The position numbers were made by a program, and so were the translations under genes. Below the pieces are notes generated by a model. The model was not told where the DNA came from, ran no database searches, and worked only from the letters and a program-made list of their open reading frames with translations. Below are positions 31,010 through 38,097 of a stretch of DNA of 64,000 bases, one piece after another (position 1 is the stretch's first letter; each line of letters starts with the position of its first letter). This DNA comes from an uncultured Prevotellaceae bacterium (GTDB taxonomy: Bacteria > Bacteroidota > Bacteroidia > Bacteroidales > Bacteroidaceae). The stretch lies in the NCBI GenBank assembly GCA_947304115.1, contig CAMZAE010000001.1:124001-188000 (forward strand), read 5' to 3'.

Positions 31010-31786
31010 TCAATAGTCGAATTTCAGGTGACGAACCGTCTTCTTTTCCTGCTTAATCATTTCGAGGGACTGGATGCCCATCTTCACATGGTTTATCACA
31101 TAGCTGGCTGTCACCTGCCGGTCGCTTTCGCCCGTCTTCACACCTTCAGGCGTCATCGGGTTGTCGCTGACGAGAAGGAGCGCCCCTGTAGGGATGTGAT
31201 TGGCGAAGCCACAAGTGAAAAGCGTTGCCGTCTCCATGTCCACCGCCATTGCTCTCGTAGTCCTTAGGTACTCCTTGAACTTGTCGTCATGCTCCCAGAC
31301 ACGGCGGTTCGTCGTATAAACCGTTCCTGTCCAGTAGTCGAAGCCGAGGTCTCGGATGGTACTGCTGACGGCACGCTGCAGCATGAACGCGGGCAGGGCA
31401 GGCACTTCCGGCGGGAAGTAGTCGTTGCTCGTACCCTCTCCTCTGATGCCCGCGATGGGCAGGACAAGGTCGCCGCGTTGCGTTTTCGTGGAGATGCCGC
31501 CGCATTTGCCCAGGAAGAGGCAGGCCTTTGGCTTGATGGCACTCAGCAGGTCCATGATGATGGCTGCATTGGGACTGCCCATGCCAAAGTTGATGATTGT
31601 GATGCCGTCTGCCGTTGCGCACCGCATATTAGACGTATAGTCTGGCTTTTCGAGGCCGAAGTTATCGCAGAAAATATCCACATAATTGTTGAAGTTTGTC
31701 AACAGGATATAAGTCCCGAAGCCTTCAAGCGGCATCTGTGTGTATCTTGGCAACCAATTCTCAACGATTTCTTGCTTTGTCTTCAT
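31010..31786 (-). CDS. amn: AMP nucleosidase
   Basis: The enzyme hydrolyses AMP to adenine and ribose-5-phosphate in purine salvage and regulation of the AMP pool. The 258-residue form is the short Bacteroidetes type with only the nucleoside-phosphorylase-like domain: ADGITIINFGMGSPNAAIIMDLLSAIKPKACLFLGKCGGI, RGEGTSNDYFPPEVPALP, and MAVDMETATLFTCGFANHIPTGALLLVSDNPM, the last with the catalytic aspartate near SDNP. Start and length are as expected. The promoter is divergent to the HSDR_N_2 gene. Confidence 0.93.
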   Translation of the reverse strand: MKTKQEIVENWLPRYTQMPLEGFGTYILLTNFNNYVDIFCDNFGLEKPDYTSNMRCATADGITIINFGMGSPNAAIIMDLLSAIKPKACLFLGKCGGISTKTQRGDLVLPIAGIRGEGTSNDYFPPEVPALPAFMLQRAVSSTIRDLGFDYWTGTVYTTNRRVWEHDDKFKEYLRTTRAMAVDMETATLFTCGFANHIPTGALLLVSDNPMTPEGVKTGESDRQVTASYVINHVKMGIQSLEMIKQEKKTVRHLKFDY

Positions 31787-31805
31787 CTTTTATGTATTTT
31801 TGCAG

Positions 31806-31813
31806 CAAATATA
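31806..31813 (-). promoter_or_regulatory. -7 element TATATTTG of amn-holA
   Basis: The forward strand reads CAAATATA, 20 bases upstream of the amn ATG. It overlaps the putative promoter region of the divergent gene (ATGTATTTTTTGCAGC). Confidence 0.5.
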
Positions 31814-31827
31814 CGAAAAAAAAAAAT

Positions 31828-32373
31828 ATGCAGGCACTGAACCTCCCGAAAACAGACCTTAAAATCATTACTAAGGACGGCAAGCAACAAGTTTTCGACA
31901 TTCTGAGACGGAAATATGTGGCTTTGACACCCGAGGAATGGGTTCGCCAGCACTTCGTACACTATCTGATAAGCGCGAAGGGTTATCCTGCCGAATGTAT
32001 TGGCAACGAGATATCCCTCACGCTGAACGGCACCAGGAAGCGTTGCGACACCGTTGTATATGGATGCAACGCGCAGCCAACAATGATTGTAGAGTACAAA
32101 TCTCCACACGTGGAGATAACGCAGAGGGTGTTCGAACAGATTAGCCGGTACAACATACGCATGAGAGTGAAATGGCTCGTCGTGAGCAACGGCCTTCAGC
32201 ACTACTGCTGCCATGTCGATTACGAAAGCGGCACCTGCCAGTTCGTCGAAGACATTCCCTCCTACAGCGACATTCTCCACGACGACAATAGCGCCTCCCC
32301 GCGCCCCAGCAAGTGCTCCGACTCAGGCGAAGGCGGAAGCAAGAGGCGCCAAACCATCCAAGATGTTAGTTGA
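31828..32373 (+). CDS. HSDR_N_2-type nuclease-like protein (not part of the RM system)
   Basis: The 181-residue protein has the fold of the N-terminal domain of type I restriction R subunits. It shows EWVRQHFVHYLISAKGYPAECIGNEISLTLNGTRKRCDTVVYG and MIVEYKSPHVEITQRVFEQISRYN, with D...EYK as a PD-(D/E)XK-like metal site. It has no helicase. In Bacteroidales this small gene is regularly divergent to holA or amn, which argues for a housekeeping role rather than defence. The C-terminal SASPRPSKCSDSGEGGSKRR is low complexity and may derive from a palindromic element. The ATG at 31828 is chosen. The track start at 31696 lies inside amn. Confidence 0.75.
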   Translation: MQALNLPKTDLKIITKDGKQQVFDILRRKYVALTPEEWVRQHFVHYLISAKGYPAECIGNEISLTLNGTRKRCDTVVYGCNAQPTMIVEYKSPHVEITQRVFEQISRYNIRMRVKWLVVSNGLQHYCCHVDYESGTCQFVEDIPSYSDILHDDNSASPRPSKCSDSGEGGSKRRQTIQDVS

Positions 32374-32390: not shown

Positions 32391-32517
32391 CCCTCCACGT
32401 TACGTTGCCAATCTCCCCACGCTGCGATGCCAATCCCTCCACGCTGCGATGCCAATCCCTCCACGCTGCGTTGGCAATCTCCCCGTGGAGCGTTTTACAT
32501 TTCCCTGTGGAGCGTTT
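32391..32517. repeat. Array of 22-nt units (CTCCACGCTGCGATGCCAATCC), later inverted
   Basis: The units starting CTCCACGTTACGTTGCCAATCT, CCCCACGCTGCGATGCCAATCC, CTCCACGCTGCGATGCCAATCC and CTCCACGCTGCGTTGGCAATCT follow each other at a 22-base step. Then two GTGGAGCGTTT units read the CTCCACG core in reverse sense. The array lies between the HSDR_N_2 stop and the mod promoter. It has no spacers of CRISPR type. Confidence 0.8.
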
Positions 32518-32660: not shown

Positions 32661-32909
32661 ATGGGCAAAATAGGCCTCAGCGGAGGTGCCCATTCAAATC
32701 TTATTGGCAATAACAACAAGCGTTGGCTATTATACAAAGCGTTCAGAAACTTGCAGGTGAAAGAACATACAATGATTATAATGGTTGCGCTCACTGGAAT
32801 AGTGGGCGTTTTCCTGTTTTCATTGTATAGGTTTCCTGCAAGTACCTTGAACGTTGGACAGCGAAGGCGTCCACGTTTCGTGTCTAATGTCCGCGAGCTT
32901 GACTTGTGA
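32661..32909 (+). CDS. Hypothetical short ORF in the mod leader
   Basis: The 82-codon frame begins eight bases after the -7 element ([20 protein letters not shown]). It contains one hydrophobic stretch ([21 protein letters not shown]) that could be a transmembrane helix starting at an internal ATG (32772). It has no family resemblance and its end is arginine-rich. It could be a leader peptide or a small membrane protein, or it may not be translated at all. Confidence 0.25.
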
Positions 32910-32958
32910 ACACTCGCAAAAAAGGCGTTATATGGCAGAGAGGAGGTACTTGCAGGAA
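32833..32958. repeat. 14-bp perfect inverted repeat around the mod start
   Basis: TTCCTGCAAGTACC (32833-32846) is the exact reverse complement of GGTACTTGCAGGAA (32945-32958). The 98 bases between contain the end of the small ORF and the putative mod start codon. A further copy of CTTGCAGG lies at about 32751. Confidence 0.8.
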
Positions 32959-35025
32959 CTTTTGTTTATTGGCTCGACGCATTATAAGAAATATAATGCT
33001 ATGGCTAAATCATTGATTGAAGAGCTGCCGCGCATTGTGAGCGATGGCAGACGCGAAGCCGCACAGATACTGGAGCGGCTCAGTAGCGGCGCACAAATCG
33101 GGTTGCAGACAAACGAACTTGTGCTGCCAAGTAAGGACACCAGCGGGCTGTTCCGAGGCTTCACCCCGCAAATCCCCAATGCCTTCAATATGGCAGGCGG
33201 CAAAGGCGAATGGATGAACCGCCTTATCTATGGCGACAACCTTTTGGCGATGCAGGCACTTCTTGCAGGCGATGCCCAGACAGGCTTACCCTCGCTTCGC
33301 GGCAAAGTGGACCTCATCTATATTGACCCGCCATTTGATTCCAAAGCAGATTACCGCACAAAGATTTCCCTCCCAGGCACAGACATCGAACAGAAACCTA
33401 CAGTATTAGAGCAATTTGCTTACGCTGATACATGGGAAGAAGGAACAGTCTCGTACTTGAAGATGATATATCCGAGATTAATGATGATGAGAGAATTGCT
33501 TTCTGAAAAAGGAAGTATATATGTGCATATTGATTGGCATGTGGGGCATTATGTAAAAGTTATTATGGATGAAATTTTCGGAAAAGATAATTTCATCAAT
33601 GACATTGTTTGGAAACGTTCAAATGGTGTCACAGGTATTTCTGGAGGAATGAAGAACTTCGCAAGGTTGCAAGACAACATTATCTGTTACAGAAAAAAAC
33701 AACCTTATTTTAATGTTATATATTCCCCTTATTCTTCATCTACTTTAAGGATGTATAAAAACAATGATAACGATGGAAGAGGCCCATATCGGTTACAAAT
33801 ACTACGTAACTATTCGGAAACTTCGATTCAAGAAATGATAAATAATAACCGAATATATACTGACAGCAACGGCAAAAGACATTTAAAACAGTATCTATCG
33901 GATAAAGAAGGTGTAGTCATGAGTGATATTTGGGATGATATTCATCAAGTTCAAGCTTCGAGTAAAGAAAATACTGGCTATGCCACACAAAAGCCTGAAG
34001 CCCTTCTTGAACGCATTATCAAAGCCTCATCTAATGAAGGCGACCTTGTTTGCGACTTCTTCGGAGGCAGCGGCACGACGGCTGCTGTGGCGGAACGTCT
34101 GGGCAGGCGTTGGATTACCTGCGACATCGGGAAGCCTGCTTCGTTGGTGATGCGCAAACGCTTTATCGACCAAGAGGTCAAGCCGTTCCTCTATCAAAGC
34201 ATCGGCGACTATCAGAAGGAAGCTTTCCGCAACAACAAACGCTACAAGCACGTCGGCGACTTGAGCCAAGTGGTCTTGGGATTGTATGGCGCTCTGCCCT
34301 TCACTCCCGAACAGACAAACGACCGAAGCTTTGGATATATTAAAGGTACGCGCACGCTCGTAATGGCCGACTCGCCCAACCGCCTCACGACTGCCGCCAC
34401 TATCCGCAAGGCAGTAGAGGCAAAGGCTTCGTTGCTCGGCGGCGACTGGGAGAGAGTCGTGGTGCTCGGCTGGAACTTCGCCTTCGACATATCGGCAGCC
34501 ATTCAGAAGTATCAGGACTCTAAGGTGGAGGTGCTCGTCATCCCGCCCGACCTGCTTGACAAGCTGGCAAAGAAAGGCTTCAAGAAACTCATCGACGACC
34601 GCTCCGTCCGCTTCTCCTCCCTGCAATACCTCGTGGCAAAGCCCATCGTCACCACAAGACAAGGCGAGGGCGACGAGCTGGACATAGAGCTGGAGAACTA
34701 TGTGCTCCTCTCGCCCGACAACATTCCGCTTGACGAGAAGGACAAGGCATCGCTGCAAAAGGTGATGAACGACGACCCGCTATCCTTGATAGAGTACTGG
34801 AGCATCGACCCCGACTACGACGGCACGACCTTCCGCTCCACTTGGCAGGACTATCGGGAGAACACCGGCAACGACAACGACCCGCTGCACTGCGTCTATA
34901 AGACACGCCTCCGCGTCCCCCACAAGGAAACGCGCCAAGTCTGCATCAAGGCTGTAGATGTCTTCGGCTTCGAGAGCCAAGTGATAGAGACTGTGACAAG
35001 CATAACCACGGATTTATCGGATTAG
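32932..35025 (+). CDS. mod: Type III restriction-modification DNA methyltransferase (adenine-N6), Mod
   Basis: Mod recognises the DNA site and methylates adenine in partnership with Res. The protein has about 697 residues. Motif IV comes first ([14 protein letters not shown], near residue 132), then a long target-recognition region, then motif X/I ([26 protein letters not shown], near residue 376). This is the beta-class order typical of type III Mod proteins. The start at 32932 ([11 protein letters not shown]) is uncertain. The ATG at 33001 ([13 protein letters not shown]) is a strong alternative and avoids the inverted repeat. The central part from about 33,430 to 33,990 is visibly richer in A and T than the flanks, as expected of a swapped recognition domain. 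The stop codon lies within a palindromic repeat. res follows. Confidence 0.9.
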
Positions 35026-35147
35026 ACGGATTGAAAGTAATTACCTTAACCACAGATTTATCGGATTCCCTGCAGATTATAATCTGTTTAATTATGTTTG
35101 AAATTCTTCAAGGAATGAATCCGTTCAATCTGTTTAATCCGTGGTTG
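35004..35147. repeat. AACCACGGATTTATCGGATT palindromic extragenic element
   Basis: The left arm begins AACCACGGATTTATCGGATT (35004). A second copy starts AACCACAGATTTATCGGATT (35048). The right arm ends TTTAATCCGTGGTT (35133-35146), in reverse sense. The inner palindrome CAGATTATAATCTG is at about 35073. The mod stop codon (35023-35025) is inside the left arm. A related sequence, AACCACGAATTGCACGAATT, stands at the very end of the window. Confidence 0.75.
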
Positions 35148-35166: not shown

Positions 35167-38097
35167 ATGAAAGCAAATAATATATGTGCTTCGCTGGAGT
35201 TAGCTAAGCGACTGAGCGAAGCGGTGAATGCGGCTTGGGAAAGTGGCGAGATGATGGAAAAGGTCACGCCAACGACAGGAGAACTGCTTAAGTTCTGGTT
35301 TTCCGAGGAATACTGTTCGCTGCGGAGCCGCAACTTCCACGCAGGGCAACGGCAAGCCATCCTCAATATCATCTATCTGCACGAGGTGCTGGGCGTAAAG
35401 ACTGTCCTTGAATACTATCAGCAGATAACACCCGATTTGATGCCGATGCTCGACCTCGGCACGATGAGTCGGCAGAAATACCAGATGCCCAAGTATGCCG
35501 TAAAGATGGCTACAGGAACAGGCAAGACGTGGGTGATGCACGCCTTGCTGATATGGCAGATGCTGAACGCAAGGCATAGCCTCACCCCAGCACCCCTCCT
35601 CCCCGGGGGAGGGGGCTTCACAAAGAACTTCCTGATTGTGGCGCCTGGGCTTATCGTCTATGACCGCCTGCTGGATGCCTTCTGCGGAAGACAGGAGAGG
35701 GACAAGGAAGGCCGCAACATCGAGACCAACGACTTCTATCTGAACAAAGAGGTCTTTATCCCTGTCCACTTCCGTCAAGAGGTCTTTTCGTTCATACAGA
35801 ACAATGTCGTCACGAAGGAAGAGGGCATCGGACGCAAGACGACAGGCGACGGATTGATTGCCCTGACCAACTGGCATTTGTTTGAGAACCAAGCCCCCTC
35901 CCCCAATCCCTCCCCCGATGAGGAGGGGAGCGGGATGCTGAGTGTGCCGGAAATGATAGAGCGTCTGCTGCCCATCCGTCCGGGCAAGGCCGCAGGCAAC
36001 GACCTCGGGATGCTCGACCGCCGCTACCTCAAAGGCTCGGAACTGGAATACCTTGCAGGGCTGGACGACATCATGGTCATCAACGACGAAGCGCATCACA
36101 TCCACGAACTCAAGCGCAACGGCGAGACAGAGGAAGTGGAATGGCAGAAAGGCTTGAACGTCATCTCGGAGAAGAAAGGCGACCGCTTCTTCCAAGTCGA
36201 TTTCTCAGCAACGCCCTACGATATGCGAGGCTCAGGCAAGAACACCCAGAAGTCCTATTTTCCGCACATCGTCGTTGACTTTGACTTGGCTACGGCAATA
36301 CGCAAAGGTTTGGTCAAGACACTGCTCTTGGACAAAAGGCAGGAGTTGACAGACCTGAAAGACCTTGATTATAAGGCTGTGCGCGACGACCGCAACAAGG
36401 TCTGCGACCTGAGCGACGGCCAAAGGCTCATGCTCCGTGCTGGCTTGGCAAAGCTAAAGAAGCTGGAAACGGAGTTTACGGCTTTGGATGAGAAGAAGAA
36501 CCCGAAGATGCTGGTTGTCTGCGAGGACACCTCTGTGACACCTTTCGTTGCCAGACTGATGACGGACGAAGGCTTGGGACAGGAAGACGTTGTCGTCATC
36601 GACAGCAACGCCAAAGGCGAAGTCGGCGAGGAAGAATGGAAAGAGACAAAGAAAAAACTCTTCGACATCGACAAACACAAACGGCCCAAGGTCATCATCT
36701 CCGTGCTGATGCTCCGCGAAGGCTTCGATGTCAACAACATCTGCGTCATCGTACCTTTGCGCTCGTCGGAAGCGCCTATCCTGCTGGAGCAGATTGTAGG
36801 TCGCGGCTTGCGGTTGATGTGGCGCGAACAAGAATACCAAAGCACAAAAGAGGAAGAGCGCAAGCGTGTTATTCAACTACACGGCCAACCAAAGAACTAT
36901 CTCGATATGCTCAGCATCATTGAGCATCCCGCTTTCATTCGCTTCTATGACGAACTGCTTGCAGGCGGCTTGGCTGTCGAGGAAACAGAAGAAGTGGGCG
37001 AAGGCGGCTCCACAGGTGACATCCTTCGGGTTGGCTTGCGAGAAGGCTATGAGCAGTTCGACCTCGAATGGCCCATGATAACAAAGGATGCGGAAGAAGA
37101 ACTGGAAGATGCAGAGATAGACATCAACAGCCTTGAACCCTTCACGGCCTTCCCGCTGGAAAGGCTCCGGCAGTTCCTGGCACAAGACGGAGAGACGTTT
37201 ATCTCACAGGAAGCCCTCTCGAAGACACAGTTCGGCAGGTACAAGGTGACGGCCAACCTGTTCTCCGCCACCAGCTACAACGAGTATCTGCAAAAGCTGC
37301 TAAAAACCATCACCAAGCGTTTCGACAAGGTGTCAGCACATAAGGAAATGGAGGTGCCGAACATACAGATTAACGAAGCGAAGACGATTGCCGCTGTTGA
37401 CCAATACATCAGGACAAGACTGTTCGGGCAGCCCTTCAATCCCTTCAACGGAAGCGACTGGAAGATTCTGCTGTCCAGAGAGGCTGTCGTCACAAAGCAC
37501 ATCATCGAGGTCATGGCACGCGCCATCTTCCGCCTGCAAGAAAGAATCTTGACGACGGATGCCGAAGTCTTGCATACGAGGTTCTCTTCTGTAGAGGAAA
37601 TCAAGATGCGAGAAGCCTATTCGATGGAGACAACTAAGACCATCTACGAGCGGCAAGCCTTTCCCACTCATGGCGGAGGCTTGGAGCAGGCTTTCATCGA
37701 ATTCCTCGAAAAGGACGGCGAAGTGGAGCGATACCTGAAGATAAGCGAGAACCAACATCCCTTTGCCAGCATCTATTACATTCGCGGAGACGGACTCATG
37801 GCGACCTATCACCCAGACTTTATCGTTACGACTAAAGACAAGGTTTATCTCATCGAGACAAAGGGCAATGACAAGGTCTTTGACAAGAATGTCCGGCAGA
37901 AGCAGACGGCAACGGTAGAATGGACGCGGAAGATAAACAGCCTGAAATCAGAGGAAAGGATGAACAGGACTTGGGAATATGTCTTGCTAAGTGAAGACAA
38001 CTTCTACAGCCTTGCTGAAAACGGCGCCACGCTGACAGACATCTGCGAGCGGCTGAAAGTCTCGCTTTCGTTCCTCGTCGGAGACTTGTTCGCATAG
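35167..38097 (+). CDS. res: Type III restriction enzyme, helicase/nuclease subunit Res
   Basis: Res is the ATP-dependent translocase/endonuclease that cuts unmodified DNA with Mod. The 976-residue protein has Walker A (MATGTGKTWVMHALLIWQML, near residue 113), a DEAH box in MVINDEAHHIHEL (near 306), and VDFSATPYDM as motif III. VLMLREGFDVNNICVIVPLRSSEAPILLEQIVGRGLRL covers motifs V-VI. A C-terminal PD-(D/E)XK nuclease carries YHPDFIVTTKDKVYLIETKG (near 882-900), so all catalytic elements look intact. Two segments, SLTPAPLLPGGGGF (about 139-152) and APSPNPSPDEEGSG (about 244-257), are translations of inserted palindromic elements. They keep the frame and lie between conserved motifs. Confidence 0.94.
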   Translation: MKANNICASLELAKRLSEAVNAAWESGEMMEKVTPTTGELLKFWFSEEYCSLRSRNFHAGQRQAILNIIYLHEVLGVKTVLEYYQQITPDLMPMLDLGTMSRQKYQMPKYAVKMATGTGKTWVMHALLIWQMLNARHSLTPAPLLPGGGGFTKNFLIVAPGLIVYDRLLDAFCGRQERDKEGRNIETNDFYLNKEVFIPVHFRQEVFSFIQNNVVTKEEGIGRKTTGDGLIALTNWHLFENQAPSPNPSPDEEGSGMLSVPEMIERLLPIRPGKAAGNDLGMLDRRYLKGSELEYLAGLDDIMVINDEAHHIHELKRNGETEEVEWQKGLNVISEKKGDRFFQVDFSATPYDMRGSGKNTQKSYFPHIVVDFDLATAIRKGLVKTLLLDKRQELTDLKDLDYKAVRDDRNKVCDLSDGQRLMLRAGLAKLKKLETEFTALDEKKNPKMLVVCEDTSVTPFVARLMTDEGLGQEDVVVIDSNAKGEVGEEEWKETKKKLFDIDKHKRPKVIISVLMLREGFDVNNICVIVPLRSSEAPILLEQIVGRGLRLMWREQEYQSTKEEERKRVIQLHGQPKNYLDMLSIIEHPAFIRFYDELLAGGLAVEETEEVGEGGSTGDILRVGLREGYEQFDLEWPMITKDAEEELEDAEIDINSLEPFTAFPLERLRQFLAQDGETFISQEALSKTQFGRYKVTANLFSATSYNEYLQKLLKTITKRFDKVSAHKEMEVPNIQINEAKTIAAVDQYIRTRLFGQPFNPFNGSDWKILLSREAVVTKHIIEVMARAIFRLQERILTTDAEVLHTRFSSVEEIKMREAYSMETTKTIYERQAFPTHGGGLEQAFIEFLEKDGEVERYLKISENQHPFASIYYIRGDGLMATYHPDFIVTTKDKVYLIETKGNDKVFDKNVRQKQTATVEWTRKINSLKSEERMNRTWEYVLLSEDNFYSLAENGATLTDICERLKVSLSFLVGDLFA
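35580..35618 (+). repeat. In-frame GC-rich palindromic element, first copy in res
   Basis: CCTCACCCCAGCACCCCTCC is followed by TCCCCGGGGGAGGGGG. It forms a hairpin around CCCCGGGG and encodes SLTPAPLLPGGGG in the res frame. Confidence 0.75.
35890..35934 (+). repeat. In-frame GC-rich palindromic element, second copy in res
   Basis: AAGCCCCCTCCCCCAATCCC is followed by TCCCCCGATGAGGAGGGGAG. CCCTCC pairs with GGAGGG. It encodes APSPNPSPDEEGSG in the res frame. Confidence 0.75.

Follow-up and report, generated by a model that had tools for sequence, protein, structure and literature searches.

In an uncultured Prevotellaceae bacterium, the gene for the Res subunit of a type III restriction-modification system harbors two GC-rich palindromes between the codons for helicase motifs I and II, and both keep the reading frame. 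How did such DNA come to lie inside the helicase of an enzyme, and is the situation peculiar to this gene? The locus is contained in a stretch of 64,000 nucleotides (the window), which belongs to a genome assembly of 2.03 Mb in 60 contigs, 80% complete.

Two palindromes in the Res gene of a type III operon

The Mod gene precedes the Res gene, as indicated by Pfam (PF01555 and PF04851) and PADLOC matches (Table 1), and the occurrence of a helicase-motif domain beside a type III Mod gene identifies Res, as judged from its sequence, as a type III restriction subunit. The motifs GTGKT, DEAH, QIVGRGLR, and PDF..ETKG are all intact. Res resembles the EcoP15I-type enzyme in its Mod-Res operon, DEAH helicase, and PD-(D/E)XK-type nuclease motifs, while the sequence similarity to EcoP15I Res is weak (E 0.01). 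Outside the loops described below, dN/dS is 0.046 against the nearest homologue and 0.046–0.069 against the homologues L201, L202, and L230, so that Res is still under constraint. No relative of Res encoded on viral contigs was found. Carriers of Res homologues are Prevotella and Bacteroidaceae metagenome-assembled genomes, many of which are named from rumen or other forestomachs, and from these names the host would be a rumen-type member of the Bacteroidota.

Table 1. Features of the Mod-Res operon and palindromic units in Res (window positions)
Feature	Position	Strand	Basis and remarks
Mod methyltransferase gene, partner of Res	32854..35025	+	PF01555 1.6e-46; PADLOC MTase_III 1.5e-75
Res gene, type III restriction-modification system	35167..38097	+	976 aa; ORF; ResIII PF04851 4.6e-12; PADLOC REase_III 6.3e-27
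Helicase motif I of Res, MATGTGKT	35506..35529	+	Translation; residues 114-121; invariant in alignment
Left flank of site 1, AGCCTCACCCCAGCA	35578..35592	+	DNA alignment of site 1
Site 1, short-form palindromic unit	35593..35618	- (C-rich strand)	Codes Res residues ~143-150
Site 2, full-length Y-type palindromic unit	35891..35929	+	Codes Res residues ~242-255; nhmmer 29-36 bits
Helicase motif II of Res, DEAH	36085..36096	+	Translation; residues 307-310; D307, E308, and H310 invariant

Other repeats are found around the operon. An HSDR_N_2 (PF13588) protein encoded at 31696-32373 (+) ends in SASPRPSKCSDSGEGGS, and the DNA behind this tail (about 32295-32370), CCTCCCC..GGGAGGGAG, looks decayed and may represent a further copy of the element that has eroded. 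Between this gene and mod, a 22-nt unit CCCCCCACGCTGCGATGCCAAT is repeated in tandem in 4.3 copies, followed by a related array of 2.2 copies (32391-32516). The mod-res spacer (35003-35146) contains a direct and inverted repeat, TAACCACGGATTTATCGGATT, of an AT-rich class unrelated to the GC palindromes.

A sequence-only reading of the window had placed two in-frame palindromes about 310 bases apart between motifs I and II. Both are indeed present and in frame, as seen in the sequence and its translation, and their starts are ~300 nt apart. Site 1, CCCCTCCTCCCCGGGGGAGGGGGCTT on the plus strand, codes TPAPLLPGGGG, and site 2, AAGCCCCCTCCCCCAATCCCTCCCCCGATGAGGAGGGGAG, codes APSPNPSPDEEGSG. With the full-length models of the repeat (see below), site 1 reaches ~11 bits, a score that alone is at chance level; its minus strand is one mismatch away from a short Y form, AAGCCCCCTCCCCCGAGGAGGAGGGG, of which the reversed genome contains 0 copies even at 4 mismatches. 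The left flank of site 1 is probably derived from the element as well, given that the insert of the homologue L205 begins with AGCCTCACCCC and that L201 retains AGCCTC. On these comparisons, both palindromes are assigned to one repeat family. Against shuffles of equal composition, the stabilities of the two hairpins are not exceptional (z -1.96 and -1.28 for sites 1 and 2), and thus the case for the elements rests on the repeat family and not on folding energy.

Residues 140-148 and 238-258 are predicted as coil with pLDDT below 50 in a model of Res built from 28 sequences (mean pLDDT 68; a model from three close homologues reaches 32), and the secondary structure flanking them, from helix to strand at site 1 and from strand to helix at site 2, is well modelled. 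Accordingly modelled, the two sites are loops of the N-terminal RecA-like domain, in agreement with the earlier suggestion that the inserted linkers may lie in exposed loops. A mapping onto an EcoP15I-like Res had also been proposed: the model supports placement in loops and is not a precise map onto EcoP15I, because the best Foldseek matches of the model, HsdR and RadD helicases, have low TM-scores (~0.25).

A repeat family residing mostly inside genes

Res is only one example of a genome-wide phenomenon and not the special case that it had seemed to be. Per strand, the genome contains 75 matches to the pattern CCCTCCN{2,28}GGAGGG, versus 4 in a reversed control. When the whole genome was searched with iterated profile models of the two main unit types, Y and Z, at a cut-off of 15 bits, 90 units were found, versus 0-1 in the reversed genome. 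The units are GC-rich and 36-39 nt long, with AGCC at or near the 5′ end in 59 of the 90; GTAG is found near the 5′ end of six and CGTC near the 3′ end of one. At ten loci, two units are separated by 80 nt or less, and in all ten of these pairs, which span roughly 70-135 nt, the units are inverted and their AGCC ends point outward. The two units in Res do not constitute such a pair, because their AGCC ends point inward and are ~270 nt apart. Near-identical copies are dispersed in the genome. Across the genus, the Z core is present in 18 of 139 genomes, with most copies in the window's genome, and other species carry variants of their own.

In most descriptions, REP-like repeats are extragenic. 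In the window's genome, using gene calls from a simple hexamer caller, 68 of the 90 units (76%) lie wholly in predicted coding sequences, 16 are intergenic, and 6 are at gene edges, while random placement would give 84, 11, and 5%, respectively. A filter that passes one frame in three would by itself predict a coding share of 64%, below the observed one (p 0.03); perhaps intergenic copies are lost faster. Many of the intergenic copies, on contigs C1, C3, C28, C38, and others, are located a few bases from a gene end, often right after the stop codon, and REPs have been reported at such positions. The 68 intragenic units are spread over 52 genes. Two insertions in a single gene had been regarded as remarkable; 12 of these genes hold more than one unit, and doubly hit uvrA genes have been published (PMC3733652).

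What is conserved is the DNA rather than the peptide, since Z units are found in all six combinations of frame and strand, the same DNA yielding different peptides. Intragenic units are balanced between the strands, 33 on the same strand as the host gene and 35 on the opposite one. Most units lack stop codons in every one of the six frames (56/68 intragenic and 13/16 intergenic, versus 10% of random 36-mers), and because intergenic copies are equally open, this openness is a property of the element itself.

The hosts are diverse. Most of 30 host proteins checked against NCBIfam match enzyme families across the insert, including LigA, TopB, MiaB, XseA, RsmE, TsaE, PurL, and RmlD, and further SufS, Dpp5, PdxT, GluQRS, QueE, MreC, and GltB; LepA matches in two stretches, one on each side of the insert. 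Many of the host genes we take to be essential. When aligned with solved LigA, LepA, and MiaB proteins, the inserts are at loops, and homologues free of the unit align cleanly on both of its flanks. In a FeoA-FeoB fusion (G000:C13:24801-27179, minus strand), an element pair is located in the linker that joins the FeoA and FeoB domains.

Occupied and empty loops in relatives

Among named relatives, 34 Res loci were found, and 32 of them were aligned with the window's Res (33 sequences in total). Neither palindrome is present in the 92% identical homologue L201 (the same record as G090) or in that of G015 (79%). The site 1 palindrome is absent in 25 of the 33, which have a native short loop of the HEDVKSG type instead, and the alignment has site 1 cleanly replacing this loop. 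Site 1 is occupied by related GC palindromes in L205 and L225 and by an unrelated double palindrome, GGGGATTTGAAATCCCC..GGGGATTTCAAATCCCC, in L202 and L216, that of L202 folding at z -7.0. This double palindrome (L202:4410-4500; site 1 of L216) codes VGGDLKSPT..MGISNPH and is found in two species of different clades. At site 2, palindromes of two subfamilies are found in the window, L230, L202, L204, and L205, and none in L201 and 27 further homologues.

The two sites differ in their presence patterns, L204 and L230 having a palindrome at site 2 alone and L225 and L216 at site 1 alone; the two insertions in Res are thus separate events of one class, which supports the earlier proposal of two independent insertions. 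A tree computed without the loops unites the window, L201, L202, and L230 (98/99), while L204 and L205 are placed elsewhere, and the presence label requires four changes on it; site 2 is thus filled in two distinct clades, and the closest relative has it empty. The AGCCTC kept at site 1 of L201, which is nested among carriers and is without site 2, is possibly a scar. Ordinary conservation of the same segments across distant genera was not observed among the aligned homologues. Relative to G090 and G015, site 1 has gained a net 15-21 nt and site 2 a net 12-21 nt, less than one unit in each case, so that the process must include replacement or subsequent erosion; at several sites, part of the native loop has given way to the unit. 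Target-site duplication is not visible, the closest relative being at dS ~0.8.

Reuse of loops is not limited to Res. Ten host segments were searched in relatives; SufS, TsaE, and RsmE had matches in other genomes, and the DNA-level comparison, in seven relatives, covers the remaining segments. The LepA loop contains a different pair in G020, and the MiaB loop contains other pairs in two genomes (G085 and G089) and one unit in G015. In the LigA linker, G085 has a GC pair, G020 carries TTCAAAG in tandem copies, and G089 shows GGAGCAA/TTGCCCC repeats, and PurL of G085 has an inverted repeat, AGTGAAGAG../..CTCTTCACT. XseA and ValS show variants or remnants in relatives, and several genomes have the plain native loop. 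The same loops in relatives, then, hold other, at times unrelated, repeats. Three of the repeat classes just named, GGAGCAA/TTGCCCC, the TTCAAAG tandem, and the AGTGAAGAG/CTCTTCACT inverted repeat, are translated in loops of LigA (L247 and L250) and PurL (L241) in relatives.

Origin of the inserts and relation to known elements

Taking as established the repeat family with its intragenic abundance and in-frame placement, the unit-free homologues, the reuse of loops, and the purifying selection on Res, we infer mobility through a transposase acting in trans, neutrality of the inserts, and selection acting as a filter. Probably, the palindromes are non-autonomous mobile units filtered by selection for frame and loop. 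A dispersed REP/MITE-like palindrome would insert with little regard to coding strand or frame; copies that add, on balance, a multiple of three nucleotides and that fall in a permissive surface loop would be tolerated, and purifying selection would purge the rest. Since the element is nearly stop-free in all six frames, in-frame insertions into loops can be tolerated, and the two sites in the RecA-like domain would be survivors of this process.

Among the alternatives, the one that survives best, though we regard it as rather unlikely, is that intergenic hairpin repeats, whatever their family, are copied into gaps or loops by recombination or template switching, with no dedicated transposase. 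Several unrelated repeat families are found in the same loops (the LigA linker, PurL, and site 1 of Res), and replacement, as opposed to pure insertion, is common. In addition, no Y1_Tnp protein (RAYT, PF01797) was found in the 80% complete genome of the window. Strong RAYT matches are few in the genus, with none in most of the copy-rich relatives, and among the relatives examined RAYT presence does not track copy number; the only strong RAYT among copy-rich relatives, that of G055, lacks flanking copies of the repeat. RAYT as the mobiliser is thus not supported by the PF01797 search of the window's own genome (80% complete) and of the relatives. No transposase is linked to the family, and this, like the net gains below one unit, weighs against the mobile-unit reading. 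Against copying of arbitrary hairpins, however, the units have defined ends, their pairs have a fixed inverted layout, and near-identical copies are dispersed, all of which suggest a true mobile unit.

It is still less likely that the inserts have been domesticated and are kept for a function, as mRNA hairpins that pause ribosomes, as modifiers of RNA stability, or as linkers that tune the enzyme. Their placement only in loops in the cases examined would fit such a role, and so would the preference of Y units on the gene strand for one frame, APSPNPSPEEEG (10/13, p 0.002), and the strong hairpins at some sites, for example, that of -58.8 kcal/mol in lepA. But the functions of the hosts are unrelated, Z occurs on either strand and in every frame, relatives have the same loop vacant or taken up by other repeats, and the two Res hairpins are of ordinary stability for their composition. 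Translational bypassing, in which ribosomes skip the hairpins and the inserted peptides are not made, is known from mobile bypass elements in some mitochondria and would explain hairpins within essential genes; it is very improbable here, as the frame is kept in every copy examined, which bypassing would render needless, and the units are nearly stop-free. Finally, loops are variable in the Res protein family and proline/glycine-rich linkers are common, but ordinary variable loops of this kind with no common DNA origin are refuted by DNA that is conserved while peptides vary by frame, by the 75 versus 4 pattern matches, and by the same units between genes.

In-frame palindromes are already known, best from Rickettsia, and the family that probably moved into Res is a variant of them and not a new kind. 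Rickettsia palindromic elements (RPEs), 105-146 bp in length, are found between genes and also, fused in frame, within conserved genes that are unrelated to one another, where their effect is tolerated; they are known in 19 reading frames, and guanylate kinase with an RPE is active (PMC2229807). Protein-coding palindromes have been reported in Wolbachia too (PMC2229807, PMC3733652), and REP-like RPEs end in CGTC (PMC3733652). The present family resembles RPEs in having both in-frame copies in unrelated genes and intergenic copies (68 versus 16), but differs in its length of 36-39 nt, GC-richness, AGCC ends, occurrence in Bacteroidota, and 76% intragenic share. GTAG/CGTC REPs are palindromes of 20-40 nt that form inverted dimers and are mostly intergenic; intragenic ones are found in several groups, in genes for DNA ligase and tRNA synthetases as well as uvrA, and recB of two Xanthomonas species has different REPs at about one position (PMC3733652). 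The close pairs described here, all inverted, resemble those dimers, whereas the GTAG or CGTC terminal tag is lacking and most units are intragenic. As in REPIN/RAYT systems, short palindromes form inverted pairs in many copies, but no RAYT was found in the window's genome (80% complete) and none is associated with the family in relatives. Prevotella and Bacteroides are not mentioned in the text of PMC3733652, and no report of such a family in Bacteroidota was found in the open-access literature. Notable in this family are its mostly intragenic location and the repeated use of the same loops.

A broader idea may be put forward tentatively, with doubts outweighing confidence: in this clade of rumen-type Bacteroidota, mobile hairpin DNA of several unrelated families might land again and again in certain protein loops, and one of these families, having become open in six frames, would have coding sequence as its main habitat. 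If so, turnover of selfish DNA would largely drive the loop evolution of housekeeping proteins. The family represents a natural insertion screen for the positions at which proteins accept extra peptides, and with it the movement of coding palindromes can be studied outside Rickettsia. It also calls for caution, as a proline/glycine-rich insert in a metagenomic protein can be a DNA repeat and not a functional linker.
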